Positions 5,397 through 51,141 of a stretch of 58,475 nucleotides of DNA are shown one piece after another. How positions within the stretch are numbered: the first letter of the stretch is position 1; the number at the start of each line of letters is the position of its first letter. A model generated the notes under the pieces. It was not told where the DNA came from. It was given only the letters and a program-made list of their open reading frames with translations, and searched no databases. This stretch comes from a virus, in IMG/VR virus record IMGVR_UViG_3300009158_003990, positions 1 to 58,475 of that record; one strand, 5' to 3'. Made by a program: the position numbers and the translations under genes.

Positions 5397-5985
5397 TGAA
5401 ATCATGTTTAATCAAAGAAATCCACATGTTGTAATTGTTGATGAATTTTATAAAGATCCAGATTCAATTGTAGAAACAACAAAAGAATTTGTATTTAAAG
5501 AAGAAAATAAATTTTACAAAGGAAAAAGAACAACCCAATGTTTATTTCCTTATGTAAAAGAAGAATTTGAAAGAATACTTAATGTTGAAATAGTTGATTG
5601 GTTAAATCAACCTATGAATGGCGTTTTTCAAATAACAGAAGGCAAAGATCCTTTAGTCTATCATAGCGATCAACAAGACTATGCAGCAGCAGTATATTTA
5701 ACAAAAGATGGACCAACAAATGCTGGAACATCATTTTGGATAGATAAAAAATATGGGTGTAGAAGACCACCAAGTCACCCATTAGAACATAGAGAAGGAA
5801 TAAGCGATTCAGATATATATACACAACATAATCTTACGCATGAAGATAATTGGGAATTAGTAGATAGAGTTGGTTCTGTGTATAATCGCCTAGTTATTTG
5901 GGATGGAAAAATGATTCATTCTGCCACTATGTATGGTGATTTTTCTAGGTTGGTTCAACTATTCTTTTTTAATGTGAAAAAATAA
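5389..5985 (+). CDS. 2OG/Fe(II) oxygenase-like protein
   Basis: ATG 5389 is favoured over 5371 because AAAGGA precedes it at a good distance. The 199-residue product has the iron ligands H-x-D in YHSDQQDYAAAVYLT (about residues 90-104) and a distal His in DGKMIHSATMYG. An Arg follows in SRLVQLFFF, which in this superfamily holds 2-oxoglutarate. The N-terminal IVDEFYKDPDSIV phrase is shared by many phage and marine bacterial oxygenases. It is directly coupled (TAATG) to a glycosyltransferase-methyltransferase fusion, which suggests action on a glycan or the same surface polymer. Confidence 0.7.
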   Translation: MNDEIMFNQRNPHVVIVDEFYKDPDSIVETTKEFVFKEENKFYKGKRTTQCLFPYVKEEFERILNVEIVDWLNQPMNGVFQITEGKDPLVYHSDQQDYAAAVYLTKDGPTNAGTSFWIDKKYGCRRPPSHPLEHREGISDSDIYTQHNLTHEDNWELVDRVGSVYNRLVIWDGKMIHSATMYGDFSRLVQLFFFNVKK

Positions 5986-9842: not shown

Positions 9843-10032
9843 AGTATTAAAAGAAAAAGAAATTAAACTATTAGAAATTTATCCAGAAATGAGTTTGAGA
9901 AATGATATTGGTTTTGATTCTCTCAATTTAGCATACTTAACTGTTTTAATTGAAGATAAATATGGAATTGACATTTTTGAAAATGGTGTGATTGATACTA
10001 TATCTGATATATTAAAAAAAATAAATGAATAA
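9811..10032 (+). CDS. Acyl carrier protein
   Basis: A 73-residue acidic helical protein with the phosphopantetheine site GFDSLNLAYL; the modified Ser is residue 37. AAAGGAG lies 10 bases before its ATG, inside the end of the acyltransferase gene. The holo-form would carry an acyl chain as a thioester and needs a host phosphopantetheinyl transferase, as none is seen here. It is flanked by an acyltransferase and an acyl-adenylating ligase, so it is a dedicated carrier for sugar acylation rather than for membrane lipid synthesis. Confidence 0.9.
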   Translation: MKKDLLKIINEVLKEKEIKLLEIYPEMSLRNDIGFDSLNLAYLTVLIEDKYGIDIFENGVIDTISDILKKINE

Positions 10033-10978
10033 CTTTATATTAAACAATACTGATTCAATCATTGACTATGAAATACTAGGGTTTATTGAAAAAATAAAAA
10101 ATAAAGAAGACATTATTTTTACAACTTCTGGAACAACAGGAGAACCAAAAAAAATAATTCATAGCTATAAAACATTAGTTAAAAACATAAAAATTAAAGA
10201 TGAATTAAAAAATAGCGTTTGGGCATTGACATATGACTATACAAAAATGGCTGGATCACAAGTTATATTGCAGTCTTATTTAAACAAAGCAAAAATTGTT
10301 AACTTATTTAAAAAATCTTATGCAGAAACAATAAGTTTAATAAAAAAATATAATGTAACACACATATCTGCTACTCCTACTTTTTATAGATTATTAACAA
10401 ATAACATTTTTAAAAAAATAAAACAAGCAACAATAGGTGGTGAACCAGTAGATATTAATTTAATTAGTTATTTAAAAAAAATATTTCCTAATGCAAAAAT
10501 AACAAACATATACGCATCAACAGAGTTTGGAACATTGTTTAGTTCAAATGATTATTGTTTTACAATATCAGAAAAAAATGAGTCGTTTGTTAAAATAATA
10601 AAAGAAACAATTTTTATAAAAAACAATGATAAATGGTTTAATACAGAAGATAAAATTGAATGGGTAGAATCAAATAAGTTTAAAATAATTGGAAGAGATT
10701 CAAATATGATAAATGTAGGTGGAGTAAAAGTAAATCCAATAAAAATAGAATCTGCAATAAATAATTTACATTATGTTTTAAGCTCTTATGTTTATGGAAA
10801 AAGTAATTCAATAATGGGAACAATAGTAGTTGCAGATATTATTGTTAAAAAAAATGTAGATAAAAATATAATAAAAAAAGACTTAGAAAAAACTTTAAAT
10901 AGATATGAAATTCCTTTAAAAATAAATATAGTTGATAATATACATTTAACCTCTACTGGCAAGATAATAAGAAAATGA
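10025..10978 (+). CDS. AMP-forming acyl ligase (acyl-ACP or acyl-CoA synthetase), compact
   Basis: Adenylating-enzyme motifs are clear. The P-loop-like TTSGTTGEPKK is at residues 33-43, IYASTEFGTLF is the A5-like motif, and WFNTEDKIEW with IIGRDSNMINVGGVKVNP is the hinge. The C-terminal STGKIIRK carries the catalytic Lys. At 317 residues it lacks the usual N-terminal subdomain of about 150 residues, as in short MenE-like ligases. It overlaps the ACP gene by eight bases, so its likely job is to load a carboxylic acid onto that ACP. The acid is not known. Confidence 0.85.
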   Translation: MNNFILNNTDSIIDYEILGFIEKIKNKEDIIFTTSGTTGEPKKIIHSYKTLVKNIKIKDELKNSVWALTYDYTKMAGSQVILQSYLNKAKIVNLFKKSYAETISLIKKYNVTHISATPTFYRLLTNNIFKKIKQATIGGEPVDINLISYLKKIFPNAKITNIYASTEFGTLFSSNDYCFTISEKNESFVKIIKETIFIKNNDKWFNTEDKIEWVESNKFKIIGRDSNMINVGGVKVNPIKIESAINNLHYVLSSYVYGKSNSIMGTIVVADIIVKKNVDKNIIKKDLEKTLNRYEIPLKINIVDNIHLTSTGKIIRK

Positions 10979-14744: not shown

Positions 14745-14917
14745 AAGATAAAAATAAGCAATCTGTTAGTTGTCTTGGTTTTTGTGGTAAAAATTTTATG
14801 AGTATAGATCCTAAAACAAATAGAATTTGTAAAAAATGCAAAGAAAAGATGTATAATAAAAAGAACGAAATGGGCAAAAATTACTTTAATGAAAAAAAAA
14901 CAGAGATAAATGAATAA
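14741..14917 (+). CDS. Small zinc-ribbon protein, 58 residues
   Basis: A short gene overlapping the GNAT stop by four bases (ATGA) and the next glycosyltransferase by eight. It contains SCLGFCGKNFMS, an expanded C-x3-C knuckle, and NRICKKCK. This is the layout of small phage and proteobacterial zinc-ribbon proteins that usually read CxxC...S...NRxCxxC. The tail is Lys/Glu-rich. It probably binds nucleic acid or protein, but there is no direct clue to the role. Confidence 0.6.
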   Translation: MKDKNKQSVSCLGFCGKNFMSIDPKTNRICKKCKEKMYNKKNEMGKNYFNEKKTEINE

Positions 14918-15953
14918 ACCAAAAGTTGCACTTATAACACCATCATTAGGTATGGGTGGTGCAGAAAGATGGATAGTTACTCTTGCAAAATTCTTCAAAA
15001 GATTAGAACCTTATTTAATTTTAAATTTAAGTGGTCAAAGCGATTCAATTTTATTAGAAGAAGTTCCAAGCAAAACAAAAATTATATCTGGTCTTTATTT
15101 AAGTTCAGATAAAATCATAAATATTTTAAGCGAAGCAGATGCAATTATTTCTTGGTGTTTTAATTTAGACTTAAGATTAAAGGATAAATTAAAATGTCCA
15201 ACAATAGATGTTTCTCATAGTGACCCAACATGGGAAAACCACAAATCTTTGATTGATTACACATCAAAAAATTCAAAGTATCATGTTGGAGTAAGTAGGG
15301 TTGCTGCTTCAGCATATAAAAATAACAATTCAGATGTAATTTATAACGGAATAGATACAAAAAGACTTAAGGAAGTAAGAGGAAGAATTAAACAAAGAGA
15401 AGAATGGGATTGTGAAAATAACAAAGTAGTTATTTTTTTAAGCAGATTGTCAGAAGAAAAAAATCCTAAAATATTGCTAGATTGTTCTGATTTGTTTGAT
15501 GAAAGTTGGAAGTTTTTATTTGTTAATACTGGCTCTATAAAAAATTATTTTAATTCAATTAAAAAAAACAATATCAAAATTATAGAAAAAACAAAATATG
15601 TTGGAGATTATTATTCTGGTGCAGATGTAGTAGTTCTTCCTTCAGACATAGAAGGAATGCCATTAGTTTTATTAGAGTCTTGGTTTTGTGGTGTTCCTGT
15701 TGTAACGACTAGGTATGATTCTTATGTTGAATTAGAAAATATGCATGGGGAATTATGTTTGTCAACAGAAGTAAGACCAACAGCACTTGAATTTTCAAAT
15801 AAAATAAACCAAGCTTTTTATGAGGGCAGATGTTCTAAAAGAGTTATTCTTGCCAAAGATGTTGTGGAAAAAAATTATACTCATGAAACAATGATTAAAA
15901 ATTGGGAAGATTATGTGTTTTTAAAAATGAAAGAATGTAATGATACGCAATAA
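14910..15953 (+). CDS. GT4 family glycosyltransferase
   Basis: A 347-residue GT-B enzyme. The N-terminal loop is VALITPSLGMGGAERW. The link between lobes reads DVIYNGIDTKRL, the C-lobe begins with KVVIFLSRLSEEKNPKIL, and the donor site is VVLPSDIEGMPLVLLESWFCGVPVV, with the two Glu of the E-x7-E motif. Retaining GT4 enzymes use nucleotide sugars such as UDP-GlcNAc or GDP-mannose. It is followed, with overlap, by a sulfotransferase gene. Confidence 0.88.
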   Translation: MNKPKVALITPSLGMGGAERWIVTLAKFFKRLEPYLILNLSGQSDSILLEEVPSKTKIISGLYLSSDKIINILSEADAIISWCFNLDLRLKDKLKCPTIDVSHSDPTWENHKSLIDYTSKNSKYHVGVSRVAASAYKNNNSDVIYNGIDTKRLKEVRGRIKQREEWDCENNKVVIFLSRLSEEKNPKILLDCSDLFDESWKFLFVNTGSIKNYFNSIKKNNIKIIEKTKYVGDYYSGADVVVLPSDIEGMPLVLLESWFCGVPVVTTRYDSYVELENMHGELCLSTEVRPTALEFSNKINQAFYEGRCSKRVILAKDVVEKNYTHETMIKNWEDYVFLKMKECNDTQ

Positions 15954-18876: not shown

Positions 18877-19950
18877 ATGTCAATGAACATAAATTATTTA
18901 GCACCAATCAATAAACTTGGTTATGGGGTTGTTGGAACAAACATATACAATGAACTTATTAAAAAAAATAATGTTTCATTGTTTCCAATTGGCCCAATAG
19001 AATGCGATGATGAAAATTCAGAAAAAATAAGGTCTGGATTAATTAATTCTTCGTCTTTTGATTATGATGCACCAAGCTTTAGAATTTGGCATCAATGGGA
19101 TATGGCTTTAAATGTAGGAAAAGGTAAAAAGTTTGGCCTTACATTTTTTGAAATGGATAGATTAAAAGAAAAAGAAATTCACAACTTAAATTTTTTAGAT
19201 AAAATATTTGTTTGTTCTGATTGGTCAAAAAAAATAATTGTGGATAGTGGAATAAGTGCCGATAAGGTTAAAGTTATAAATCTTGGTGTAGACAACTCTA
19301 TTTTTGATGAAAAAGAAATCGTTCCTTCTAAAACAACATATTTGTTAAATGTTGGAAAATGGGAAATAAGAAAGGGTCATGATCTAATAATAGATATTCT
19401 TCTTAAAGCATTTACTCCAGAAGATGATTTTAAATTAATAATGTGTTGTTCAAATCCTTTTTTAACTCAAGAAGAACAAAATCAATGGATTTCATTTTAC
19501 GAAAAAAGTCCATTTTTTGATAAAATAATTGTTTTAAAGAATAGACTTGAAACACAAAAAGAAGTTTTTGATATTATGAAAAAAAGTGACATAGGTATTT
19601 TTCCATATAGATCTGAGGCTTGGAATTTAGAGTTAGCTGAAATGCTTGCTCTTGGAAAAAACTGTATAGCAACAAATTATTCTGGACCTACTCAATATGC
19701 TTTAGAATCAGGTTGCGAATTAATAGATCCAGATGGGATTGAATTAGCAAACGATGGCAAATGGTTTGATGGTAGTGGCAATTGGGCAAAATTAAATGAG
19801 TCTTATGTTGAAAGATTTGCCAATAAACTTAAGTTGTTACATCAAAAAAAACAGTCTGGAGAATTGATTAAAAATACTAAAGGTATAGAGTTTTTTAAAA
19901 AACATACATGGGAATCTATTGCCTCATATATATCTGAGGAAATTAAATAA
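18877..19950 (+). CDS. GT4-type glycosyltransferase
   Basis: A 357-residue GT-B protein with AAGGA upstream; ATG 18877 or 18883 are both possible starts. The N-lobe has NKLGYGVVGTNIYNEL and KIFVCSDWSKKIIVDSGI. Then comes KVINLGVDNSIFDE, and the C-lobe starts with YLLNVGKWEIRKGHD. The donor site reads IGIFPYRSEAWNLELAEMLALGKN, a variant E-x7-E. The sequence resembles transferases that act on host lipopolysaccharide-like glycans, but the target here is unknown. Confidence 0.82.
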   Translation: MSMNINYLAPINKLGYGVVGTNIYNELIKKNNVSLFPIGPIECDDENSEKIRSGLINSSSFDYDAPSFRIWHQWDMALNVGKGKKFGLTFFEMDRLKEKEIHNLNFLDKIFVCSDWSKKIIVDSGISADKVKVINLGVDNSIFDEKEIVPSKTTYLLNVGKWEIRKGHDLIIDILLKAFTPEDDFKLIMCCSNPFLTQEEQNQWISFYEKSPFFDKIIVLKNRLETQKEVFDIMKKSDIGIFPYRSEAWNLELAEMLALGKNCIATNYSGPTQYALESGCELIDPDGIELANDGKWFDGSGNWAKLNESYVERFANKLKLLHQKKQSGELIKNTKGIEFFKKHTWESIASYISEEIK

Positions 19951-26195: not shown

Positions 26196-27146
26196 TTATT
26201 CTCCAACTATTTTAAATTCTCCATTAACTATATCGTACACCTTATCTTTATGAATAAGCATTTTATATACAATTTGAGTTATGTCTAATTTTGTATTTCT
26301 AGTTTCTCCAATTCCACCTTTGTCACTAATTAAAAATTTAAATTGTTCTGTTAATACTGTTTTTTCTGGTGGATTAAAATGAAAGTAAGCATTAATGTAA
26401 CTCTCATCATTTACTGGTGGCTCATAATTAATCTTTTTATCTTCTATTTGATATCCTCTTAAAACTTTGCAAAAATCTATAACCTTTTCTTTTTTTCCAC
26501 CAAAAAAAGCACCATAATAATAAGTGTATTTTAATTTACTGTCTAAAGGAACATAAGATTTTCCAGTTTTATTTCTATCAAAACCTTTTCCATTAGATAA
26601 CCAAGAACGATTCCCATAATGTTCTCCACCAACAAGATCTCCCAAAAACCATGACTCATCAAAGTTTTTATCTATATTTGTATCTGCATCAAAATAATAA
26701 ATATAATCACAATTTTCTTTTTCAAGCTTTATTATATTTTTAAATTTTGAATTTGTTCCTTCATGCCAATGACTATGATTTTCTTTTATGTAAACAACAT
26801 TTGCATTTGGCAAATAATTTATTGGACTTAAGTCAGAAAACAAATAAAACTTTATATTAAATTCTCCTTTATAATAATGATTAAATTTTTTAACAAATCT
26901 TAGTCCAAGAGCAAAATATGAATTTGTGCAGACAATAACAATCGCTATTGTTTTTAATGAAAAACATTCATTTTCTGGAATTACTATTTCTTTTGTGTCA
27001 CTGTATATTATTAATTTTTTAATTTCATTGGGTTTTGTGTCGCCAAAAACATCGTTTGATGCTTTTACAAAACCAAAATTTTGAATTTCATATTTTAATA
27101 TTTCTGTTACATCTACATCTCCATATGTTGCTTTTTTAATGTTCAT
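26196..27146 (-). CDS. GT6-family glycosyltransferase with extra N-terminal domain
   Basis: A 316-residue two-part protein. Residues 1-65 form a small domain (KKATYGDVDVTEIL, VKASNDVFGDTKPNEIKKL) that also occurs attached to secreted bacterial proteins. Residues about 68-300 carry GT6 motifs: IVIVCTNSYFALGL, FYLFSD, the metal site YYFDADTNID, YYYGAFFGG, and NDESYINAYFHFNPPEK. Family GT6 includes the ABO blood-group and alpha-1,3-galactosyl transferases, and bacterial and cyanophage homologues are known. It probably adds Gal or GalNAc to a fucosylated or galactosylated acceptor. Confidence 0.85.
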   Translation of the reverse strand: MNIKKATYGDVDVTEILKYEIQNFGFVKASNDVFGDTKPNEIKKLIIYSDTKEIVIPENECFSLKTIAIVIVCTNSYFALGLRFVKKFNHYYKGEFNIKFYLFSDLSPINYLPNANVVYIKENHSHWHEGTNSKFKNIIKLEKENCDYIYYFDADTNIDKNFDESWFLGDLVGGEHYGNRSWLSNGKGFDRNKTGKSYVPLDSKLKYTYYYGAFFGGKKEKVIDFCKVLRGYQIEDKKINYEPPVNDESYINAYFHFNPPEKTVLTEQFKFLISDKGGIGETRNTKLDITQIVYKMLIHKDKVYDIVNGEFKIVGE

Positions 27147-33289: not shown

Positions 33290-33718
33290 ATGGCAAAAAA
33301 TAGATCAGATAGTAGCAAATACGAATCTAGGCATGGTGGTGGGTGGATTACTTCTGCTCAGTTTCTTGCAGAGGTTATGTGTGAAAGATACGCCAAAAAA
33401 AATGGCGAAGAATTAGTTTACAAGTTTTGGAATGTTGATTTTTGGAAAAAAGAATTTTTCAAACAACTTGCATTTGCTAAAAAATTGCTTCTTGTTTACG
33501 AACCCCATATTATTTCAAAGGCACTAAGGTCTAAAGAAGGCAAATCTGTTTTTTCTTTAGGTGCTCCTTGGTTAAAGAAAATAATTGAACTGGAACAAAG
33601 AAAGTTTAAATTAGCAGATACTAGCAAGGTTGTTGATACAACTGAGTTGCCAATTAGAAAACCATTCCAATCATCCAAATCTCTAATGAAAAAATTAAAG
33701 GACTTAGATAATGAGTGA
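33290..33718 (+). CDS. Conserved RecA-adjacent phage protein
   Basis: A 142-residue protein with RHGGGWITSAQFLAEVMCER, KFWNVDFWKKEFFKQ and the Cys/His-poor helix AKKLLLVYEPHIISKAL. It overlaps the recA start by eight bases. Proteins of this type repeatedly sit beside phage RecA genes, so a recombination or repair accessory function is likely. The exact role is unknown. Confidence 0.55.
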   Translation: MAKNRSDSSKYESRHGGGWITSAQFLAEVMCERYAKKNGEELVYKFWNVDFWKKEFFKQLAFAKKLLLVYEPHIISKALRSKEGKSVFSLGAPWLKKIIELEQRKFKLADTSKVVDTTELPIRKPFQSSKSLMKKLKDLDNE

Positions 33719-35732
33719 AAACTTAGATAAGATTTTAAAAGAAGTAGATAAACAATATGGCAAAGGTGTAGCTATAAATGCAAACGAATTACTGGATGAA
33801 GAAAAGTATGTAATACCATTATCTCCTGCATTAAATTTGGGTCTTCATGGTGGAATACCAGAAGGCTCTTGGATTACATGCTCTGGTCATCCAAAAAGTG
33901 GTAAGGCACAACCAATATCTGCAATTGTTTATACAAACAAAGGCCCAAAAAGAATTGGCGATATAAAAGTTGGAGATATAGTTTGTTGTCCAAGCGGAAC
34001 ATTATCTCCTGTTGTTGGTGTTTTTCCTCAAGGCGTAAAAGATGTTTATACAATAACATTTTCTGATGGTTCTACGGCAGAATGTGAGGCAGATCACCTT
34101 TGGAACATAAAAACAAGAGAGCAAAAGTCTTATAAAACTGTAATGCTAAAAGATTTTATGGATAAAATATTTATAGGAAAAAGCACTAAAGCTAAATATT
34201 CAATACCAATAACTAATCCAGTAAATTTTGATGCTGCACAACTACCAATAGACCCATTTGCTTTTGGCGTTTTATTGACGATTGGATTTTTTAAGAAAAA
34301 AATTACAGCATTGATTGAAGATGAAAATCTACTTACTAAATTTTGTGACATTATGGATAAGTATGCATTTTCTTATTCTACTAAAGATAAACAATTGACT
34401 CTTGATATTAAAGACGAAATCAAAAAATTAAATCTCTTTAATAAAAAAACATGTGAAAAATTTATACCTTCAATTTATTTATACAACTCAATAGAAAATA
34501 GGTTTTTATTACTTAAAGGCATACTGGCTTTTGCTCATATAACTAAAAAAGAAACTCCTATTATTACAGTTTCATCAAAACAATTTGCTGAAGACTTTAG
34601 GTTGTTGGTTCAATCTCTTGGTGGAATATGTTTGATATCTAGACATAAAAACAATGAAGACAATTTTATTTACTATTGCTCCATTATTATTAAAGATAAA
34701 AAAGGGCTGTTTGAATTTAAAAAAGAAAAGTTTAACAAAATTGACATCAAAAACAATCTTTCAAGAAAAATAATTTCTGTAGTAAAATCAAGACAAGAGA
34801 AATGTGTTTGTATATCTATTAAGAATAAGAATGGTCTATACTTAACAGACAACTTTATCGTTACTCATAACACGCTAACTGCATTATCTTTTGCTGCACA
34901 ATGTCAAAAGCCAGAACACGGAGCTAGACATGTGTATTATCTAAACATTGAGGGTAGACTTAAGCCTATGAATTTAAGAGGTATAGCTGGTTTAAATTTA
35001 GATAAAATGACAATCTATAGATCTACTCAAGATAAAATTCTTTCCGCAAAGGATTACTTAAATTTGGCGTTTAAAGCCATTAATACACACCCAGGAAGTT
35101 TAATTATCATAGATAGTGTTTCTGCTCTGTGTGATGAGAAGGAAATGGATCAAGGTATTGGCTATGAGAATAGAGGGGCTGGTAATAAGCTTTTTGCTGG
35201 TTTTTGTAGGCAAGCAGCCAATATAGTTCCAGTACAAAACTGTATGGTTTGGGCGATTATGCACTTAACACAATCTCAAGGAATGTATGGTGGTTATACA
35301 GAAAAAGGTTCTAGAACATTGCAATATCAAGCAGATGTGCAAATGAGAGTGAAGTCTGATAAACCTTGGAGTGTTGGTGGAGAAGGAAAAGACAAACAAA
35401 TTGGTCAACAGGTTCATTGGATAATTGAGTCTTGTTCTTTAGGATCTCCTGGAATGGAAGTTGATAGCTTTATAAGATATGGAATTGGTATAGATAATAC
35501 ATACGAGGCAATTAATTTGGGTTGTCAGCTTGGACTTATTGATAAGGCTGGTGCTTGGATGACATTAAACTTTATGGAAAGACACTTGAAACTATTAAAG
35601 TCTGAAGTTTGGGATGATCCCACTATTAAATTAGTTAAAACTCAAGGTGCAGAAAAAATGTATAAATTATTGTTAGAAAATCCAAAATGGATAACCGCTT
35701 TAGAAAAAGAAATTAAGGCGATTATATCGTGA
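33711..35732 (+). CDS. recA: RecA-family recombinase interrupted by an intein
   Basis: A 673-residue precursor. Residues 1-65 and 388-673 together form a 351-residue RecA. The Walker A reads GHPKSGK then T after the intein, and Walker B is SLIIIDSVSAL. NIVPVQNCMVWAIMHLTQSQG and QYQADVQMRV follow in order. The intein (residues 66-387) splits the Walker A between Lys and Thr, so ATP binding requires splicing. The mature enzyme would polymerise on ssDNA for strand exchange, as UvsX does in T4. It leads a replication-recombination operon. Confidence 0.93.
   Translation: MSENLDKILKEVDKQYGKGVAINANELLDEEKYVIPLSPALNLGLHGGIPEGSWITCSGHPKSGKAQPISAIVYTNKGPKRIGDIKVGDIVCCPSGTLSPVVGVFPQGVKDVYTITFSDGSTAECEADHLWNIKTREQKSYKTVMLKDFMDKIFIGKSTKAKYSIPITNPVNFDAAQLPIDPFAFGVLLTIGFFKKKITALIEDENLLTKFCDIMDKYAFSYSTKDKQLTLDIKDEIKKLNLFNKKTCEKFIPSIYLYNSIENRFLLLKGILAFAHITKKETPIITVSSKQFAEDFRLLVQSLGGICLISRHKNNEDNFIYYCSIIIKDKKGLFEFKKEKFNKIDIKNNLSRKIISVVKSRQEKCVCISIKNKNGLYLTDNFIVTHNTLTALSFAAQCQKPEHGARHVYYLNIEGRLKPMNLRGIAGLNLDKMTIYRSTQDKILSAKDYLNLAFKAINTHPGSLIIIDSVSALCDEKEMDQGIGYENRGAGNKLFAGFCRQAANIVPVQNCMVWAIMHLTQSQGMYGGYTEKGSRTLQYQADVQMRVKSDKPWSVGGEGKDKQIGQQVHWIIESCSLGSPGMEVDSFIRYGIGIDNTYEAINLGCQLGLIDKAGAWMTLNFMERHLKLLKSEVWDDPTIKLVKTQGAEKMYKLLLENPKWITALEKEIKAIIS
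33906..34871 (+). mobile_element. Class 3-type intein in RecA with degenerate LAGLIDADG endonuclease
   Basis: A 322-residue intein begins with Ala (AQPISAIVYTNKGPKRIGDI), not Cys or Ser, and ends VTHN, followed by Thr in the host protein. It has the class 3 W-C-T set: Trp66 in ADHLWNI, Cys302 in CISIKNKNG, and Thr320 in the final THN. This class uses the internal Cys for the first thioester. The central region retains two LAGLIDADG-like helices, FAFGVLLTIGFF (119-129) and LLLKGILAFAH (201-211). The usual acidic residues of the GDG and DTDG ends are lost. The homing endonuclease therefore looks dead while splicing residues are kept. Confidence 0.88.
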
Positions 35733-36127
35733 AAGTAATAGGTCTTGATGGTAAAACTTATTCTTGGACTTCTGGTAATGTTCCAGACCATGATGATGCA
35801 AGACATAGATCATCTTTGCATCTATTGGCAAGGGGCATTCTTAAGTCAATGTACCCGATGGACAGAATCTTGGAGGAAGCAGTGCTTCCTGGAACTGGTG
35901 GGTTGACGGCAGATTTTTGGTTGCCACTAAGAAAAACAATAGTCGAAGTTCATGGCGAGCAACATTATAAATTTATACCCTTTTTTCATAATACGATGTT
36001 AAATTTTTATCATTCTAAAAAAAATGATAAGAATAAAATAGAGTGGTGTGAAAAAAACAACATTTACCTTATAGAGCTACCATTTAATGAATCAGAACAA
36101 CAGTGGCGAAAAAGAGTTGAAGGCTAG
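35729..36127 (+). CDS. PD-(D/E)xK-like endonuclease
   Basis: GTG 35729 overlaps the recA stop by four bases. The 132-residue protein has a nuclease core: LTADFWLPLRKTIVEVHGEQHY, which gives D-xn-E-x-H/Q, and then KNKIEWCEKNNIYLIELPF. This matches small phage endonucleases that follow recA, probably acting on recombination intermediates. The pattern is similar to the Vsr/EDxHD group. The target structure is not known. Confidence 0.68.
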   Translation: MKVIGLDGKTYSWTSGNVPDHDDARHRSSLHLLARGILKSMYPMDRILEEAVLPGTGGLTADFWLPLRKTIVEVHGEQHYKFIPFFHNTMLNFYHSKKNDKNKIEWCEKNNIYLIELPFNESEQQWRKRVEG

Positions 36128-41979: not shown

Positions 41980-43896
41980 ATGAATTGGACACCATTACAT
42001 TGCCATACGCATTATAGCCTATTAGATGCACTTAGTAAGCCAGATATTCTGGCAAAAAGATGCTTTGATCTTGGATATAAGTCGTGTGCCATAACTGATC
42101 ACGGAACTATTTCTGGATGCATATCTTTTGCTAAAGCATGTTTGTCCAAAAAAATAAAGCCAATATTGGGTTGCGAATTTTACATGTGTAAAGAAGCATC
42201 ATCTATTCAAACTAAAGATAATTCTGATTTAACGCATTTGTGTGTTCTTTCTAAAAACTTGATTGGTTGGAAAAATTTAATAAGTCTTTCTTCTAAATCA
42301 AATTCTCCAGAGTGTTTTCAGCATAAACCAAGGCTGCATATAAGCGATTTTTTAGGTAATACAGATGGATTAATTGCTTTTTCTGGACATATTGGTAGCG
42401 AATTAGCAAATTGTTTGTTTGCAGATTTTAAAGAGGCATATTCAAGAACTGAGTATGGTGAAATAAAAGAATTACTTAAGCCAGATTGGTTAGATTGTGC
42501 CATTAAAGTTTGTTCACAATATGTTGATGTATTTGGAACAGACAATTTCTTTATAGAAATACAGCTTTTTGATAAAGAAAACATACCAGCATCAATAGTA
42601 ATTGCAGAATGTCTTCGTGAAATATCAAAAAAAACAGGCATTAAAAAGATAGCAACTCCAGATGTTCATTATGTTCTTGCCGAAGATGCATCAGATCAAA
42701 GAGTATTGCTTTGTTCTTTAATGGAGGCAACACTTAAAAATATTAGAGATAAAATTCAAAAAAGTGGTGATTTTGATCTTTCTGTTTTTTTTAAGTCTAA
42801 TAAGTATTATCTTCCTTCTCTTGAAGAGATTGTGGCTTTACATGAAAAAGATGAAATAGACAATTGTCAATTAATTGATAGTATGTGTGAAAATTATTCA
42901 ATGATTAAAGAGCCATCTATTCCAAACTTTGATTGTCCAAATAAGCTAAGTCAAATTTCTTATCTAAGACAGTTGTGCAGAGAGGGTTGGAATAAAAAGT
43001 TTTCTGAAATAGGATCAAAAACAGAGCAATACAAAATATATACAGAAAGAATTGCTTATGAGTTAAATGTTATAGATAAGTCTGGACTTTCTGGCTATTT
43101 CTTGATTGTTCAAGATTATTGTAACTGGGCAAAATCAAAAAATTGGCTTGTTGGTCCAGGAAGAGGATCTGGTGCTGGATGCATGATTTCTTACCTTTTG
43201 GGAATAACAGATGTAGACCCAATAAAACATGGGCTTGTTTTTGAAAGATTTTATAATGCTGGAAGAAATACTTCTGGTAGAGTTAGCTTGCCAGATATTG
43301 ATTGTGATTTTCCAATAACAAAAAGAGATCTTGTTGTTGAATACATTCGATCTAAATATGGGGATGGTCATGTTAGTCAAATGATTACATTTAGTAGAAT
43401 GCAAGGCAGAGGCTCATTGAAAGATGTATTAAGGGCACACGGTTTTTCTTTTGAGGAAAGCAATAGAATAACAAAGCATATTCCTGATGAGTCTGAGATA
43501 TCTGAACAATTGCAGGAAATGAGAGATGAAGATGGCGATTCTTCAATAATAAGGTGGGCTTTAGAAAATATTCCTGATAAATTATCAGAGTATTGTAAAA
43601 TAGATGAAAACGGAGAGATAACAGGAAAATTAGCAAAAGAATTTATGCAAGCAATAAGATTGGAAGGAACAAAAAGAAGTCAAGGAAAACATGCTGCTGG
43701 CATAATTATTAGCGACTTACAAATGGGTCAAATATGCCCAATGATTTTTGATAAAAAATCAAAGCAGTCTATAGCTGGTCTTGAAATGTCAGATTTAGAG
43801 TCTATAGGTTTAGTTAAGTTTGATATACTTGGAGTTGCTGTTTTAGATAAAATTATGGGGTGCATAAACTTTTTAAAAGGCAAAACAAATGAATGA
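41980..43896 (+). CDS. dnaE: DNA polymerase III alpha, N-terminal part (PHP, palm, thumb)
   Basis: A 638-residue protein with an intact-looking PHP domain: LHCHTHYSLL, AITDHG, LGCEFY. The palm has VGPGRGSGAG, PDIDCDF with catalytic Asp439 and Asp441, and KFDILGV with the third Asp615. The protein stops only 23 residues after that Asp, at the point where normal alpha subunits continue into the fingers domain. There is no intein at the end, so the two halves probably associate. A spacer of two genes then separates it from the second half at 44800. Confidence 0.9.
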   Translation: MNWTPLHCHTHYSLLDALSKPDILAKRCFDLGYKSCAITDHGTISGCISFAKACLSKKIKPILGCEFYMCKEASSIQTKDNSDLTHLCVLSKNLIGWKNLISLSSKSNSPECFQHKPRLHISDFLGNTDGLIAFSGHIGSELANCLFADFKEAYSRTEYGEIKELLKPDWLDCAIKVCSQYVDVFGTDNFFIEIQLFDKENIPASIVIAECLREISKKTGIKKIATPDVHYVLAEDASDQRVLLCSLMEATLKNIRDKIQKSGDFDLSVFFKSNKYYLPSLEEIVALHEKDEIDNCQLIDSMCENYSMIKEPSIPNFDCPNKLSQISYLRQLCREGWNKKFSEIGSKTEQYKIYTERIAYELNVIDKSGLSGYFLIVQDYCNWAKSKNWLVGPGRGSGAGCMISYLLGITDVDPIKHGLVFERFYNAGRNTSGRVSLPDIDCDFPITKRDLVVEYIRSKYGDGHVSQMITFSRMQGRGSLKDVLRAHGFSFEESNRITKHIPDESEISEQLQEMRDEDGDSSIIRWALENIPDKLSEYCKIDENGEITGKLAKEFMQAIRLEGTKRSQGKHAAGIIISDLQMGQICPMIFDKKSKQSIAGLEMSDLESIGLVKFDILGVAVLDKIMGCINFLKGKTNE

Positions 43897-44167
43897 CAAC
43901 TTTGAGGAAATATCAATTATTACAAAACTAGTAAGTCAACAGATAGCACTATTGGATTCTTTGGCTGAATGCAATTCTTCAAAAAAAGAACTCATTAAAC
44001 AAGCAAATAAGATATTAAAATCTGTTGCAATATATCATGGTGGAAGTTTGTTTTTAAATAAAGAATTTTTAGATTCTGCTGAAGACTCTGATGTAGAATT
44101 AAATATAATTCAAGATAAAGAAGGTTCTGTAGAATTAAAAATTAAGGATGCAAATAATGAAGAGTAA
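43889..44167 (+). CDS. Hypothetical protein between polymerase and exonuclease
   Basis: This 92-residue protein starts inside the end of the polymerase N-part gene and stops inside the exonuclease start. It has a helical N-terminus (FEEISIITKLVSQQIALLDSLAE) and an acidic C-terminus. It might connect the split polymerase halves or the exonuclease, as its position suggests, but no motif proves this. Confidence 0.5.
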   Translation: MNDNFEEISIITKLVSQQIALLDSLAECNSSKKELIKQANKILKSVAIYHGGSLFLNKEFLDSAEDSDVELNIIQDKEGSVELKIKDANNEE

Positions 44168-44795
44168 TACAATTATTGTATTTGATTTTGAAACAGGATC
44201 TTTAGATACACAAACATGTGAGGTTATACAAGTTGCAGCAAAAGCAATAAATAGAAAAACCTTGCTTCCTATTCCAGATGCAGTTTTTAATAGTTTAATA
44301 AAGCCAAGAGACTTTAATAACTTGCAAGATTCTGCTTTGGCAGTAAATAAAAAAACAAAAGAAGAATTAGCTTTAGCACCAGAAATAAGCGTTGTTTGGA
44401 ATAGGCTTATTGATTTTATTTCAAGGTTTTCTATTGGCAAAAGCAATATAATGGCTCCAGTTCCAGCGGGTAAAAACATTCGTCATTTTGATATGCCAAT
44501 TTTTGAAAGAGTATGTCGTGAGCTTGGTTATACAGACAAAGATAAAAAACAAACATATTTTAATAATCGTAGCATGTTTGATTTAGATGAAATAATGCTT
44601 TTGTGGTTTGAAAATAGTGATGATATGCCAAATATGAAGATGGATACAATCCGAGATCATTTTGGTATGTCAAAAGCAAATGCTCATGATGCATTAGTTG
44701 ATGTTGAGCAAACTGGAGATTTAATTATCCATTTTTTAAAATTGCATAGATCAATATACCCAAAAGTAAAATTTAAAGACTCATTCAAGAAATAA
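44157..44795 (+). CDS. dnaQ: DnaQ-like 3'-5' proofreading exonuclease
   Basis: ATG 44157 has AAGGA eight bases before it. The 212-residue protein has the DEDDh active site: FDFETGS (Asp, Glu), KNIRHFDMPIFERV (third Asp), and NAHDALVDVEQTGDL (His, Asp). It proofreads polymerase errors, in E. coli as the epsilon subunit of Pol III. Its gene sits exactly between the halves of the polymerase alpha subunit, which is consistent with one complex. A C-terminal alpha-binding tail is short. Confidence 0.87.
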   Translation: MKSNTIIVFDFETGSLDTQTCEVIQVAAKAINRKTLLPIPDAVFNSLIKPRDFNNLQDSALAVNKKTKEELALAPEISVVWNRLIDFISRFSIGKSNIMAPVPAGKNIRHFDMPIFERVCRELGYTDKDKKQTYFNNRSMFDLDEIMLLWFENSDDMPNMKMDTIRDHFGMSKANAHDALVDVEQTGDLIIHFLKLHRSIYPKVKFKDSFKK

Positions 44796-44799
44796 TAAT

Positions 44800-46425
44800 A
44801 TGACAAAAAAATATCAGTTCTCATGTGGTTGCAGTTTTCCAATTATTGGTGAGCCTTTATCAAAAGACTCTTTGCCATTAATGGAAGTGGATGCAACAAA
44901 ACTTCCTTCTTGTGAAAGTGCTTGGAACATTTTTGCAAGAGGTGACACAAAAGGAATTTTTCAATTAGAATCAGATCTTGGTAAACAATGGTCTAAAAAA
45001 TTAAGACCAAAAACAGTTGAGCATCTTACTGCTTTAGGTGCATTAATTCGCCCTGGAGCATTGCGTTCTGTTGATGATAAAGGCGTTAGTATGACAGCAC
45101 ACTATTGCAGGATTGTTAATGGAGAAGAACAAGTTTCTTCTTATCATCCTGTCGTTGACGAAGCCCTTAAATCTACATATGGATCACTTGTTTTTCAAGA
45201 ACAAGCTATGGAGCTTTCTAAGGTTGTTGCTGGATTTACGCTACAAGAAGCAGACATTCTTCGTAAGGCAATGGGTAAAAAATCATCAAGCGAAATGGCT
45301 AAATGCAAAAAGTTATTTATTGATGGTTCTAAAAAAATGAATGTTGTTTCTGAAATTCAAGCAGAAGAAATATTTGGTTGGATTGAACAAAGTCAAAAAT
45401 ACTCATTTAATAAAAGCCATGCTTGTTCATATGGCTTGCTTACATACAATACGGCATATTTAAAAAGCCATTTTCCTGTTCAGTTTTTTACAAGTTGGTT
45501 ATTCTATGCAAAAGATAAGGCAGACAGTCTTTTAGAAATATCTGATCTTATTGATGAAGCTAAAAAGTTTAATGTGGACATTGAATTACCAGACATAACT
45601 GTATTAAATAGTAATTTTTATACAAATGGAAAAACTATATGGTTTGGTATTACTGACATTAAAGGCATTGGAATGTCGCAGTTTGAAAAAATAAAAAAAT
45701 CTATACAAAATTACCCAACAAAAATAAAAAGTTGGGAAGAATTTGTTATTAAGCTTTCTGATGATATGCCAACTTCAAGTTTGGAAAAACTTATATCGGT
45801 TGGTGCTTTTAGAAAATATGGAAGTAATAGGCAGAAGCTTTTAGCTGATCTTAACTGTTGGACACAACTTACAGATAAAGAAAGGTCTTGGATAAAAGAA
45901 AATGTTGAAATTACAAATATTGCAGATATGGTTTTAAAGTCAGCAAAAACAAAAAAAGATGGCGGTGCGTGTTGTATTTCTAAGCGTGTTGACATACTTA
46001 CAAGTTTGGCAAATAGTATAATAAATCCACCTTCTCCTTTGGTTGATATTCCTTCTTGGGTTATTTGGATAGAAAAACAGTCATTAGGCATTGCTTTGAC
46101 ATATAATGCTACAGATTCATGCGATACTAGTAGTTCAAATACAACATGTAAAGAATACTTAGATGGAAAAAGTGGATATATGGTTTTTGGTGTTGAAATA
46201 AGAAGGTGTAAAGAAGTTGTTACAAAGGCTGGAAAAACACCAGGATCAAAAATGTGTTTTCTTTCAGTATCTGATCCAACAGGAAAAATAGACGATGTTA
46301 TCTGTTTTCCAAATCCGTACAAAGAAATAGGTTCTTTGTTGAAAGAGGGAAACACAGTCTTGATTCAAGCAGAACGAGACAAAAAAAGTGAATCTCTTTT
46401 GGTTAAAAAAGCTTTTCAAATTTAG
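44800..46425 (+). CDS. dnaE: DNA polymerase III alpha, C-terminal part (fingers, clamp-binding, OB fold)
   Basis: A 541-residue protein beginning with an unusual FSCGCSFPI segment, then FARGDTKGIFQLES, the start of the fingers region in normal alpha subunits. Fingers motifs LIRPGALRS, LRKAMGKKSS and KSHACSYGLLTYNTAYLKSH follow. A helix-hairpin-helix region comes next (ITDIKGIGMSQFEKI). The last 110 residues (VFGVEIRRCKEV and FLSVSDPTGKIDDV) match the OB fold. No catalytic Asp of the palm is present, so it cannot polymerise without the product of 41980-43896. There is no convincing Shine-Dalgarno, but the position is unambiguous. Confidence 0.9.
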   Translation: MTKKYQFSCGCSFPIIGEPLSKDSLPLMEVDATKLPSCESAWNIFARGDTKGIFQLESDLGKQWSKKLRPKTVEHLTALGALIRPGALRSVDDKGVSMTAHYCRIVNGEEQVSSYHPVVDEALKSTYGSLVFQEQAMELSKVVAGFTLQEADILRKAMGKKSSSEMAKCKKLFIDGSKKMNVVSEIQAEEIFGWIEQSQKYSFNKSHACSYGLLTYNTAYLKSHFPVQFFTSWLFYAKDKADSLLEISDLIDEAKKFNVDIELPDITVLNSNFYTNGKTIWFGITDIKGIGMSQFEKIKKSIQNYPTKIKSWEEFVIKLSDDMPTSSLEKLISVGAFRKYGSNRQKLLADLNCWTQLTDKERSWIKENVEITNIADMVLKSAKTKKDGGACCISKRVDILTSLANSIINPPSPLVDIPSWVIWIEKQSLGIALTYNATDSCDTSSSNTTCKEYLDGKSGYMVFGVEIRRCKEVVTKAGKTPGSKMCFLSVSDPTGKIDDVICFPNPYKEIGSLLKEGNTVLIQAERDKKSESLLVKKAFQI

Positions 46426-46818: not shown

Positions 46819-48318
46819 ATGTCAAAAAAAAGAATATTGTTATGCGGTGAATCAACATCAATAAGTTCTGGTTATGCAAATTATGGATTGCAGATCATGA
46901 ACAGGCTACACGAAACTAACGAATTTGAGCTTGGGGAAATAGCTGCATTTCCAAAAAACCCAAATGCTCATTTAGATGTTCCTTGGGTTGTTTACTCAAG
47001 AGATAAAAGTGGAAATCCATTAAAAGATCCGAAAGATATTTTTGAAAGTGTTATTTATGACTTTAAACCAGATATTGTTTGGTCTTTTAGAGATCCTTGG
47101 GTAGATGACTTTATAGGTTTATCTCCATTTAAAAAAAAGTATCATTGGGCTTATATGCCAACCATTGATGCTGTGCCTCTAGATCCTCATTGGATTTATG
47201 CTATTTCAAAAGCTGATTCTGTTTTTACATATTCCGATTGGGCGTTAGAAATACTTAGAAAAAATTATCCAAATATAAACGCTATATCTTCAGCTTCTCC
47301 TGCTGGAGATGATATTTTTGTTGTTGAAAAAGACAAAAGAAAATTTAAAGAAAAAAATGGAATTAATCCAGACTGCTTAATTATAGGCACAGTAATGAGG
47401 AATCAAAGAAGAAAGCTTTATCCAGATCTTTTTGATGCTTTTGAAATGCTTTTAAAGCAAGCCCCAAAAGAAATGTCTTCAAGGTTAATTCTTTATGTTC
47501 ATACAACATATCCTGATCTTGGTTGGGATATACCTAAACTAATATCTGAAAGACCAAGTATTTCCAACAAAGTTTTTTTCAACTATGTTTGTAGTTCATG
47601 TTCTAGAATTTCTATTCTAAATTTTAGTGGTTCATTAATTGGTTGCAACTACTGTAAATCTGATACATGTATTTTTCCTACTACTAAAAATGGGGTAAAA
47701 AGAGAATCTATGCTGGCGGTGTATAGCTTAATGGATCTATATGTTCAATATTCTTGTGCAGAAGGATTTGGTATGCCATTAGTTGAAGCTGGATCTTGTG
47801 GTGTTCCTGTTTGTGCCACAGACTATAGTGCAATGTCAGATATAGTGAGAAAACTTGATGGATATCCTATAAAAGTACAAAGAATGTTCTATGAACCAGA
47901 AACGCACAGAAAATTAGCTCTTCCAGACAATCAAAATTTTGTTGATATTTGTATTAAACATTTTCAACAACCAGAAACGATTAGAAAATACAAAAGCCTA
48001 AAAATATCTAATCTAACAAAACAAAAATATAATTACGATGATGTTGCAAAAAAACTTTCAAAGCATTTTAATACTATACCTAAAACAAATTCTTGGGAAT
48101 TACCAAAAAATATTTTAGATATTCCAGAATACGAAGAAAAAAGTTCTTCATCTGATTTTTTAAAAAAAATACTTGGACAAATATATAAAGATGATGATTT
48201 TTTGTTTTTAAAATATTTAAAAATTCTTAATTACAGTATGGCAAGTAGGAAATCTGTTTACGATGAGGTTGTTGAAAAAATAAATGAATATAATAATCTA
48301 GAACTAGAAAGAAAATAA
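46819..48318 (+). CDS. GT4-type glycosyltransferase with a zinc-ribbon insertion
   Basis: A 499-residue GT-B enzyme. The N-lobe begins GESTSISSGYANYGL, then VWSFRDPWVDDF and FTYSDWALEIL. The C-lobe starts IIGTVMRNQRRKLYPDLF. Within it, residues 258-261 (CSSC) and 276-279 (CNYC) form a small zinc-ribbon insertion. The donor site is SCAEGFGMPLVEAGSCGVPV. The 100-residue C-terminal tail is helical. It starts the second glycan block, directly after SSB. Sugar and acceptor are unknown. Confidence 0.87.
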   Translation: MSKKRILLCGESTSISSGYANYGLQIMNRLHETNEFELGEIAAFPKNPNAHLDVPWVVYSRDKSGNPLKDPKDIFESVIYDFKPDIVWSFRDPWVDDFIGLSPFKKKYHWAYMPTIDAVPLDPHWIYAISKADSVFTYSDWALEILRKNYPNINAISSASPAGDDIFVVEKDKRKFKEKNGINPDCLIIGTVMRNQRRKLYPDLFDAFEMLLKQAPKEMSSRLILYVHTTYPDLGWDIPKLISERPSISNKVFFNYVCSSCSRISILNFSGSLIGCNYCKSDTCIFPTTKNGVKRESMLAVYSLMDLYVQYSCAEGFGMPLVEAGSCGVPVCATDYSAMSDIVRKLDGYPIKVQRMFYEPETHRKLALPDNQNFVDICIKHFQQPETIRKYKSLKISNLTKQKYNYDDVAKKLSKHFNTIPKTNSWELPKNILDIPEYEEKSSSSDFLKKILGQIYKDDDFLFLKYLKILNYSMASRKSVYDEVVEKINEYNNLELERK

Positions 48319-48319
48319 T

Positions 48320-49444
48320 ATGAATGTTTTATATATAGGAAACTATAGGGATGGCACTGGTTATGGTCAAGCAGCAGAAGATTACATTCTTTCTTTAGAT
48401 TCTGTTGGTGTTAATGTTGTTTGTAAACCATTAATGTTTAATAATAATAAGCACATTCCTCACAAAAGAATTATTGAAATTGAAAAAAGAAAGTCTGCTA
48501 ATTTTGACATTGTTATTCAGCACACATTACCAATTCACATGCAATATGACTCAAGATTTTTTTTAAATGTTGCACTATTCTCTCATGAAACAGATTCTTT
48601 TATTATGTCTGGATGGAAAGAAAAAATAAATAATATGGACATGTGTATCGTGTCAAACAATGATAACTTAAAATCTTGTATAAAAAGCGACATAAAAATA
48701 CCCACACATGTTGTTCATCAAGGAAGAGATTTTTCTATTTATAATAAAAAATATAAAAAACTCGAAGAAATAACAAACAATACATTCTCAAATGACTTTA
48801 TATTTTATACGATAGGTGAAAAAACAAGAAGGAAAAATTTAACATCTCTTTTAAAGGCTTACTTCTTAGAATTTAGAGAAAATGAATCTGTCTGCTTAAT
48901 AGTAAAAACAGATGGTTCTGAAGAAGATGAATTTTTTAAATATTGCAAATCAATTGCTTCTGGTTTGAATATAGTTAATCACACAAGAGTTTTTTTGATT
49001 TCAAAAAGACTTACAGATAATGAAATTTTTAGACTACACTCATCCTGTCATGCTTTTGTTCAATCTTCGTATGGTGAAGGTTGGAGTATTCCAGCTTTTG
49101 ATGCATTGGGTTTTGGCAAAACACCAATAGTTACCAATTGCACTGGCTACAAAGAATATTTAGATGAATCTGTGGCTTGGATGGTTGATTGCCATAAAGA
49201 ACCAGTTTTTAATACAGATAGATTAGACAGTGGTATGATGCATGGTTCTGAATTTTGGTGGTCAATAGATATAAACGAATTAAGGAAAAAAATGAGGGAA
49301 TGCTATGAGGAAGAAGGACAAAGAGAAAAAAGGAAAGAAAATTCTTTGGATAGAGCGTATGAATTTTGTCACGAAAAAATCGGTGAAAACTTTTTAAAGG
49401 TGCTAAAAAAATGCCTCCAAGAAAAAAAAAGCAGAACTGGGTAG
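48320..49444 (+). CDS. GT4-type glycosyltransferase
   Basis: A 374-residue GT-B enzyme with an N-terminal GNYRDGTGYGQAAEDY glycine loop. IFYTIGEKTRRKNLTSLLKAY starts the C-lobe. The donor site is QSSYGEGWSIPAFDALGFGKTPIV, with Glu in the usual place. It follows the previous transferase after one base and overlaps the phoH gene by 34 bases. The two GT4 genes probably act in sequence on one glycan. Confidence 0.85.
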   Translation: MNVLYIGNYRDGTGYGQAAEDYILSLDSVGVNVVCKPLMFNNNKHIPHKRIIEIEKRKSANFDIVIQHTLPIHMQYDSRFFLNVALFSHETDSFIMSGWKEKINNMDMCIVSNNDNLKSCIKSDIKIPTHVVHQGRDFSIYNKKYKKLEEITNNTFSNDFIFYTIGEKTRRKNLTSLLKAYFLEFRENESVCLIVKTDGSEEDEFFKYCKSIASGLNIVNHTRVFLISKRLTDNEIFRLHSSCHAFVQSSYGEGWSIPAFDALGFGKTPIVTNCTGYKEYLDESVAWMVDCHKEPVFNTDRLDSGMMHGSEFWWSIDINELRKKMRECYEEEGQREKRKENSLDRAYEFCHEKIGENFLKVLKKCLQEKKSRTG

Positions 49445-50145
49445 ATATAACCAATTACAAAGAAGAACAACCAGAAACATCATGGCAACAAGATAGAGAT
49501 AAATCCGTAGAGGAAGAAACAAAAAATCAAATAAAGGGAAAAACAAAAAATCAAGAAATATATATAGAGGCAATTGAAAGAAGTACTTTGACAATTTGTT
49601 CTGGTCCTGCTGGTGCTGGTAAAACATTTATTGCTTGTGGCGTTGCTGCTGGCTTGATGATGCAAAAAAAGATAGAAAAAATAATAATTGCTAGACCTTT
49701 AATTGAATGTGGTCAAAAAATAGGTGCATTTCCAGGAGACTTAAAAGAAAAAACAGAGCCATTTATGGTTGCTATGCTAGAAGCACTTGGTGCTTTTTTA
49801 ACAAAAACAAAAATGAAAGCTATTAGAAATGATCAATTATTAGAAATATGTCCTCTTGAATTAATGAGGGGAAGAACTTTTCATGACTCTATGATTATTT
49901 TAGATGAAGCACAAAATGCCACAAGAAGGCAATTAAAAATGTTTTTGACTCGTTTTGGTCAAAACTCTAAGGTTGTAGTGTGTGGAGATCACACCCAAAC
50001 AGATCTGCCTCATTATGAAGGAAACACTATGGAATGGATTTTATCTAGGTTGGATCATAAAGATATTGCTAAAGTCATGCTGACTGGAGATGATATACAA
50101 AGACATGGTTTAATTAAGTACATCATCGAACAGTTGGGAGAATAA
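49411..50145 (+). CDS. phoH: PhoH-like ATPase
   Basis: A 244-residue P-loop protein. A basic N-terminal tail leads into CSGPAGAGKTFIACG (Walker A, about residues 63-77). IIIARPLIE and GAFPGDLKEKTEPF are PhoH hallmarks. Walker B is SMIILDEAQNAT, and KVVVCGDHTQTDLP follows, as in PhoH/RNA helicase-like ATPases. PhoH genes are very common in phages; the function is not settled, with roles in RNA metabolism suggested. Here it interrupts the glycosyltransferase series. Confidence 0.9.
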   Translation: MPPRKKKQNWVDITNYKEEQPETSWQQDRDKSVEEETKNQIKGKTKNQEIYIEAIERSTLTICSGPAGAGKTFIACGVAAGLMMQKKIEKIIIARPLIECGQKIGAFPGDLKEKTEPFMVAMLEALGAFLTKTKMKAIRNDQLLEICPLELMRGRTFHDSMIILDEAQNATRRQLKMFLTRFGQNSKVVVCGDHTQTDLPHYEGNTMEWILSRLDHKDIAKVMLTGDDIQRHGLIKYIIEQLGE

Positions 50146-51141
50146 ATGCATCCTGCTATGAATAGTATCTTAAGGCAAGCAACCAGAAAAGATACGGATA
50201 GGCTTAACATTATAACTTTTTCTACGCATGAAAGATATCAGTCGAATATGGCTGATGTTGATGCTAATTTTTGGGTTATAAATAATAAAAATATAAAACT
50301 TTGGAATGAAGTTTATGCAAAATTACCAAATAATCACATACTTCTAAATGATGTTGAAAGTATTTTAGATATACCATTTTATCTTGATTTAGATATTGTT
50401 TTGACACACGAAAGATTTATGCAATATGACTTTGGTGTTCAGATAGCAAAGTATTTTCATCTTCCTATTGTGTGCTTAGAACACATATGTATGACACCAC
50501 AAAGAGAATCGCTTAAGAAGAAAATTGGAAACACAAATGTTTTTATATCAAAATATTCTTCTGATTCTTGGGGCATTGGACCTAACTCAAAAGTAATTCA
50601 TCACGGAGTTAACACAAATGATTTTTGCAATAAAAAAATAAAAAGAGAAAATAATATACTAAGCGTTGTAAATAGGTGGGTAGAAAGAGACTATGAGTGC
50701 GGTTATTATTTGTGGGAAAGAGTTACATCTGGTTTACCAACAGTCGTTGTTGGAGATAATCCTGGTCTTTCATCTCCATGCAATAATGTGGAAGAACTTG
50801 CACTAAAATACAACAGGTCAAGTATATTTTTAAATACATCTATATTTAGTCCTATACCAACTACTTTATTAGAAGCAATGTCATGTGGTTCTTGTGTTGT
50901 AAGTACATCAAATGATATGATTTCAAAAATAATAGATCATGGTGTTAATGGATTTATTTCCAATGATCCAGAAGAAATTACAAAAATACTGAAGTATTGC
51001 ATGAGCGATGAGTCTATGTGCAGGAGAATTGGTGAGAATGCAAGAAAAACAATTTTAGAAAAATTCTCATTAAATGCGTTTACTTCTAATTGGAATAATC
51101 TACTTCGACAATCACTAGAAAAGAATTGGTGGGAATTATGA
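50146..51141 (+). CDS. GT4-type glycosyltransferase
   Basis: A 331-residue GT-B protein starting right after the phoH stop. It has THERYQSNMADVDANFW at the N-terminus, KVIHHGVNTNDFCN between lobes, NNILSVVNRWVERDYECGYY at the C-lobe start, and SPIPTTLLEAMSCGSCVV as the donor site with one of the two expected Glu. It overlaps the next gene by four bases. It may be inactive or specialised. Confidence 0.78.
   Translation: MHPAMNSILRQATRKDTDRLNIITFSTHERYQSNMADVDANFWVINNKNIKLWNEVYAKLPNNHILLNDVESILDIPFYLDLDIVLTHERFMQYDFGVQIAKYFHLPIVCLEHICMTPQRESLKKKIGNTNVFISKYSSDSWGIGPNSKVIHHGVNTNDFCNKKIKRENNILSVVNRWVERDYECGYYLWERVTSGLPTVVVGDNPGLSSPCNNVEELALKYNRSSIFLNTSIFSPIPTTLLEAMSCGSCVVSTSNDMISKIIDHGVNGFISNDPEEITKILKYCMSDESMCRRIGENARKTILEKFSLNAFTSNWNNLLRQSLEKNWWEL

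Follow-up and report, generated by a model that had tools for sequence, protein, structure and literature searches.

A class 3 intein carrying a LAGLIDADG domain without its catalytic acids in the Walker A motif of a phage RecA-like recombinase

Class 3 inteins are defined by a complete WCT signature (Trp B:12, Cys F:4 and Thr G:5) and by a position 1 that is not Cys, Ser or Thr (PMC3196547, PMC7664689). The described members MP-Be DnaB, MP-Catera Gp206, Dra Snf2, MsmDnaBi1 (6bs8) and MchDnaB1 (6rix/6riy) share with the intein reported here the WCT residues, the non-nucleophilic position 1, the block B His, the terminal His-Asn and the Hint fold (PMC3196547, PMC7664689). The present intein differs from them in its phage RecA-like extein, in its Ala1 within a Glu1 subfamily, and in its full-length, apparently dead homing endonuclease (HEN) domain. 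MsmDnaBi1 has no HEN domain (PMC6195587), whereas the present intein keeps one.

The RadA inteins of P. horikoshii and T. sibiricus likewise occupy a RecA-family P-loop and have no active HEN (PMC5790916). These are mini-inteins without a HEN domain, and conditional splicing has been shown for them, whereas the present intein, known from its sequence, keeps the complete HEN fold. The PhoVMA intein has an intact HEN architecture and has lost a catalytic Asp, as seen here, and HEN deletion largely diminished splicing of the TliVMA intein (PMC8966425), whose structure (7qsu) is the best Foldseek match to ours. Both are located at the archaeal VMA-b site, whereas the decay described below is a graded series across phage clades. 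The mycobacteriophage TerL1-a P-loop inteins interrupt a terminase and not a recombinase, and several phage inteins in the study of that site encode functional homing endonucleases, unlike the one reported here. The RecA inteins of M. tuberculosis and M. leprae belong to class 1 and lie at other sites. They too are found in RecA, but in the cellular protein (PMC5050341).

Class 3 inteins, RecA-family P-loop insertions and degenerate HENs are each already known. Here they come together, and live-looking, one-acid-lost, both-lost and empty states occur at one site in one recombinase family. In searches of open-access papers, which did not include Tori and Perler 2011, we found no report of this RecA intein subfamily. 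The graded series allows two reasons for keeping a dead HEN to be told apart by test: dependence of the splicing domain on it (HEN-HINT mutualism), or a role in regulating the host protein.

The window, which is the whole stretch of DNA analyzed, is the IMG/VR virus record IMGVR_UViG_3300009158_003990 (58,475 bases). Its ORF 33711-35732 encodes 673 aa, a RecA-like phage recombinase interrupted by the intein. The features are as follows.

33711..33905, plus strand: N-extein (65 aa), ending in the Walker A residues GHPKSGK (33885-33905)
33906..34871, plus strand: intein of 322 aa (Ala1 to Asn322; ORF residues 66-387), assigned to class 3 from its signature, AlphaFold2 (AF2) model and Foldseek matches
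33906..33908, plus strand: position 1, Ala (GCA); Glu (GAA) in close relatives
34077..34109, plus strand: block B, AECEADHLWNI, with His64 (34095-34097) and Trp66 (34101-34103), both invariant
34200..34709, plus strand: LAGLIDADG homing endonuclease domain (intein residues ~99-268), predicted to be catalytically dead, under purifying selection
34260..34292, plus strand: first LAGLIDADG motif, AFGVLLTIGFF, with Ile126 at the catalytic Asp position
34518..34544, plus strand: second LAGLIDADG motif, GILAFAHIT, without an acidic residue; DTDG in relatives
34809..34811, plus strand: Cys302 of block F:4, predicted initiating nucleophile, invariant, within CVCISIKNKNG
34863..34871, plus strand: block G, Thr320-His321-Asn322 (G:5 Thr, penultimate His and terminal Asn), invariant
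34872..35732, plus strand: C-extein (286 aa plus stop), beginning with Thr+1; matches Pfam RecA and the UvsX-like PHROG_97

The recombinase matched Pfam RecA above the family cut-off (2.3e-11) and the UvsX-like PHROG_97 (2.6e-23). With the cellular RecA model TIGR02012, the score was 67 bits (1.6e-18), below the cut-off of 325 bits. By these matches, the extein host protein is a RecA/UvsX-like phage recombinase. The residue before the intein is K65 (AAG) within CSGHPKSGK, and that after it is Thr388 (ACG, 34872-34874). The insertion point is thus SGHPKSGK|T. A preliminary description of this DNA had stated that Walker A is split between Lys and Thr, and the ORF translation bears this out; in relatives with an empty site, this point lies within an uninterrupted SGHPKTGKT or SGKPKTGKT.

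Next to the signature residues themselves, their conservation was analyzed. His64, Trp66, Cys302, Thr320, His321 and Asn322 were invariant in an alignment of 25 sequences (alignment A1), and also in the wider table of relatives. Although Cys300 adjoins Cys302, it is replaced by Ser in many relatives, whereas Cys302 never varies. Therefore, Cys302 and not Cys300 was assigned to F:4. Glu1 is the rule across the intein subfamily and Ala1 is the exception of the window; more distant relatives possess Glu, Asp, Ala, Leu, Phe or Pro, and none of the listed relatives with a clear junction has Cys, Ser or Thr at this position. The best sequence matches in the PDB were gp41-1 and its WCT-engineered form, followed by MsmDnaBi1 (6bs8) and MchDnaB1. 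In the columns of Trp66 and Cys302, class 1 gp41-1 has Phe and Asp, whereas class 3 MsmDnaBi1 (6bs8) has Trp and Cys. The nearest sequences in the searches and in the intein tree, which contains no class 1 outgroup set, were of class 3 type. The intein at 33906-34871 is accordingly classified, from these residues, as class 3. The preliminary description had made the same assignment and had placed Ala1, Trp66 (in ADHLWNI), Cys302 and Thr320 exactly where we find them; the class 3 assignment, the K|T insertion point and the dead LAGLIDADG domain all stand when compared with more than 100 relatives.

The structure, whose modeling had been proposed as a check, was predicted with AlphaFold2 from the family alignment (pLDDT 88, pTM 0.88). 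The model is a complete intein fold, in which the Hint domain is interrupted by a two-motif LAGLIDADG domain. Foldseek returned HEN-containing VMA inteins first (TliVMA 7qsu, E 4e-15), then LAGLIDADG enzymes, and it also found class 3 MsmDnaBi1 (6bs8) with a TM of 0.81 by target length.

In the window, the two LAGLIDADG motifs read GVLLTIGFF (residues 121-129) and GILAFAHIT (residues 205-213). Since these columns read GCLIGDGGL and GLMDTDGYN in live-looking relatives, which keep GDG and DTDG, the acids have been lost from both motifs. An active LAGLIDADG enzyme has an acid at the end of each helix; here the helices end in TIG and AFAH. Loss of both acids is incompatible with LAGLIDADG nuclease activity. 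The intein is thus predicted to be unable to home by its own nuclease, and the earlier view of a dead endonuclease domain is upheld.

The states of the motifs differ among clades. GDG and DTDG are found in most of the distant RecA relatives with an intein at the same site and of the inteins of other phage genes. GNG is paired with DTDG in the clade with 73-78% RecA identity, GAG or GCG is paired with KVAG in the 83-88% clade, and the clade of the window has TIG or TVG and AFAH or SFAH. GNG may be an active or an inactive state. We infer that the nuclease decayed in nested steps, from GDG/DTDG through GNG/DTDG to the acid-free state.

Two further groups of inteins were observed. The RecG genes of Lentzea and Saccharothrix (L245, L247-L253 and L256-L259) carry a P-loop class 3 intein with a second decay series, from GDG/DTDG forms of 342 aa down to forms of ~225 aa without the first motif. 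Thus, shrinkage of the domain occurs elsewhere among related class 3 inteins. Staphylococcus phage Alsa_1 (L237) and Lactococcus phage 949 (L238) possess class 3-like inteins with Ala1 after GK. Cys F:4 and Thr G:5 are present in them, and HII replaces HLW, so that the Trp of WCT is apparently absent.

The relatives compared came from scans of public contigs and of a phage collection. Over all 673 aa, two further contigs are 100% identical to the window ORF. In the clade with 73-100% RecA identity, the intein was present in all 59 junction-readable IMG/VR contigs. Because the architecture recurs in these 59 contigs, it is not a chance product. Intein-free alleles were found at RecA identities of ~67-69% (L206 group), ~60% (L076 group) and 42-45%. 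In the L076 group, where gene order was checked, the order around RecA is that of the window. One contig (L074) has a deletion, either an assembly error or real, that runs from the last part of the N-extein through Walker A into the first part of the intein. A single 221-kb contig (IMGVR_UViG_3300024509_000007) is reported to carry two intein-free RecA genes (L207 and L216).

In the RecA tree, the clade of the window and the 83-88% clade were grouped (92/64), the empty clade of ~68% identity was sister to that pair (99/92), and the GNG clade was placed outside. In the intein tree, the no-acid group and the GNG group were each supported at 100/99, and they joined at 82/80 along with two other rows. 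These trees suggest vertical inheritance with one precise loss of the intein. A RecA tree that keeps all occupied rows of the clade together was not rejected (AU p 0.055). Since there are intein-free alleles, one group of which is possibly nested beside the clade of the window, precise loss may have happened, and the intein may persist for more reasons than that it physically cannot be lost.

Selection was measured by NG86 on pairs and by codon models in IQ-TREE. In the codon models, the omega of the dead HEN domain was 0.124 in the window clade and 0.047 in the 83-88% clade. Omega = 1 was rejected (2dlnL 265 and 347) at a cost of 133 and 173 log units, respectively. When only tight subclades were used, the values were unchanged (0.124 and 0.044). 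The Hint parts gave 0.01-0.07, and the C-extein 0.022 in both no-acid clades. Since the recombinase is strongly conserved and the insert breaks its Walker A motif, accurate splicing would be needed. By structure, the omega of the dead HEN was 0.135 in helices, 0.079 in strands and 0.108 in loops. Examples of its conserved residues are K185, P188, S224 and L238-G240. The intein was 322 aa long in 12 of the 12 distinct window-clade sequences, and 309 or 310 aa in the sister 83-88% group. Because the intein is in frame with RecA, missing stop codons and frameshifts are not evidence of constraint; the low omega and the absence of in-frame indels are. An overlapping gene was considered as the source of the low dN/dS and rejected, as no long ORF lies over the intein and the two reverse-strand ORFs there are 61 and 73 aa. 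The dead HEN domain is kept by strong purifying selection. The preliminary description had called the intein a relic. This holds for the nuclease activity only; the domain itself is constrained (omega 0.05-0.12) and its length is kept.

We also considered whether uneven decay of the DNA-facing strands indicates lost DNA binding. Comparison of the GNG clade with the no-acid clades gave identities of 0.12-0.16 in strands and 0.30-0.32 in helices, whereas within the window clade the HEN strands are as constrained as the remainder. With this mixed result, the reading was set aside.

The explanation that we favor, and regard as probable, is class 3 splicing in the RecA P-loop with the dead HEN domain retained as a scaffold for folding or for splicing (HEN-HINT mutualism). 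The intein would have to be excised from the P-loop before a functional ATPase forms. Cys302, in an active site of Cys, His64 and Thr320 braced by Trp66, would attack the Lys(-1)-Ala1 bond to give the branched thioester typical of class 3. Transfer of the N-extein to Thr+1 would follow, Asn322 would cyclize with the assistance of His321, and an acyl shift would rebuild GK-T. The ancestral intein presumably carried an active LAGLIDADG endonuclease; in the window lineage the acids would have gone from the first motif before the second, after which the intein would have been inherited vertically. The dead domain is most likely retained because Hint folding or splicing relies on it as a scaffold. 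This reading rests on the omega values of 0.124 and 0.047, the rejection of omega = 1 and the nearly fixed length, and HEN domains that aid splicing irrespective of nuclease activity have a precedent (PMC8966425). Against it, the purifying selection could stem solely from the avoidance of precursor misfolding. In addition, when the window clade is compared with the 83-88% clade, no part of the intein is less conserved than the HEN (identity 0.36, versus 0.54-0.55 in Hint).

The best-surviving alternative, though we consider it unlikely, is that the dead endonuclease simply reflects one step in the homing cycle, in which activity would have been lost after fixation. The insert would persist since precise deletion is rare, and the domain would be constrained only because a misfolded insert spoils RecA, with neither dependence of Hint nor regulation. 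Decay after fixation and rare precise loss are indeed predicted for that cycle (PMC3229294), and the full occupancy of the 59 contigs and the span of the RecG inteins from GDG/DTDG to ~225-aa forms agree with it. However, the omega of 0.05-0.12 and the near-constant length, across lineages that have both acids missing in common, are tighter than expected for a dispensable insert, and the empty-site clade possibly nested beside that of the window suggests that precise loss may occur.

It is doubtful that the dead HEN was recruited as an obligate splicing-control module that gates the maturation of phage RecA, for example by ssDNA; if true, this would explain the strong purifying selection on a nuclease-dead domain. 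Slightly more doubtful still is a conditional splicing switch, in which RecA stays inactive until a cue such as ssDNA or redox state frees Cys302, with the dead HEN as part of the sensor. In RadA of P. horikoshii, a RecA homologue with an intein in the same P-loop, ssDNA raises the splicing rate almost 50-fold, and control requires the region that once held the HEN (PMC5790916). For MsmDnaBi1, which lies in the DnaB P-loop, oxidizing the catalytic Cys causes reversible inhibition (PMC6195587). In alignment A1, Cys27 and Cys60 are invariant beside Cys302. However, Cys48, the trap partner in DnaBi1, aligns at or next to Val47 (phmmer against 6bs8), and a Cys48-Cys118 redox trap of the MsmDnaBi1 type was rejected because this partner position is not conserved. 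Condition-dependent behavior cannot be read from sequence, and the two outcomes that the preliminary description had offered, a switch or strict dependence, are inseparable at this level.

Mobility with the cut supplied in trans by a free-standing nuclease is very improbable. A small nuclease-like gene (35729-36127), Vsr-like by eye, overlaps the RecA stop codon, and its product matches PHROG homing/HNH endonuclease families. However, it occupies the same place in the ~60% relatives without the intein (L076-L078 and L080) and is thus unlinked to intein presence, so that trans-homing by this gene was rejected. The gene is a core operon gene, located beside RecA with and without the intein. That the insert is a class 1 or class 2 intein, or no intein, can practically be dismissed: the general models are weak (Hom_end_hint below cut-off, TIGR01445 without a match), but position 1 is not Cys, Ser or Thr, WCT is complete, the closest sequences are of class 3 type and the model is a complete Hint and LAGLIDADG intein.

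In a search of window positions 1-25000, no DNA-level relatives were found among annotated phages, and no tRNA genes were found for the phage. DNA polymerase III alpha is encoded in two ORFs (41980-43896 and 44800-46425) with a DnaQ-like exonuclease gene (44148-44795) between them. A split intein was considered here and rejected, as the facing ends have no intein motifs by eye and the exonuclease gene intervenes. The window also encodes many glycosyltransferases (5985-7235, 14910-15953, 18877-19950, 26196-27146, which is of the GT6 family, and 46819-51141) and an AMP-binding enzyme (10025-10978).
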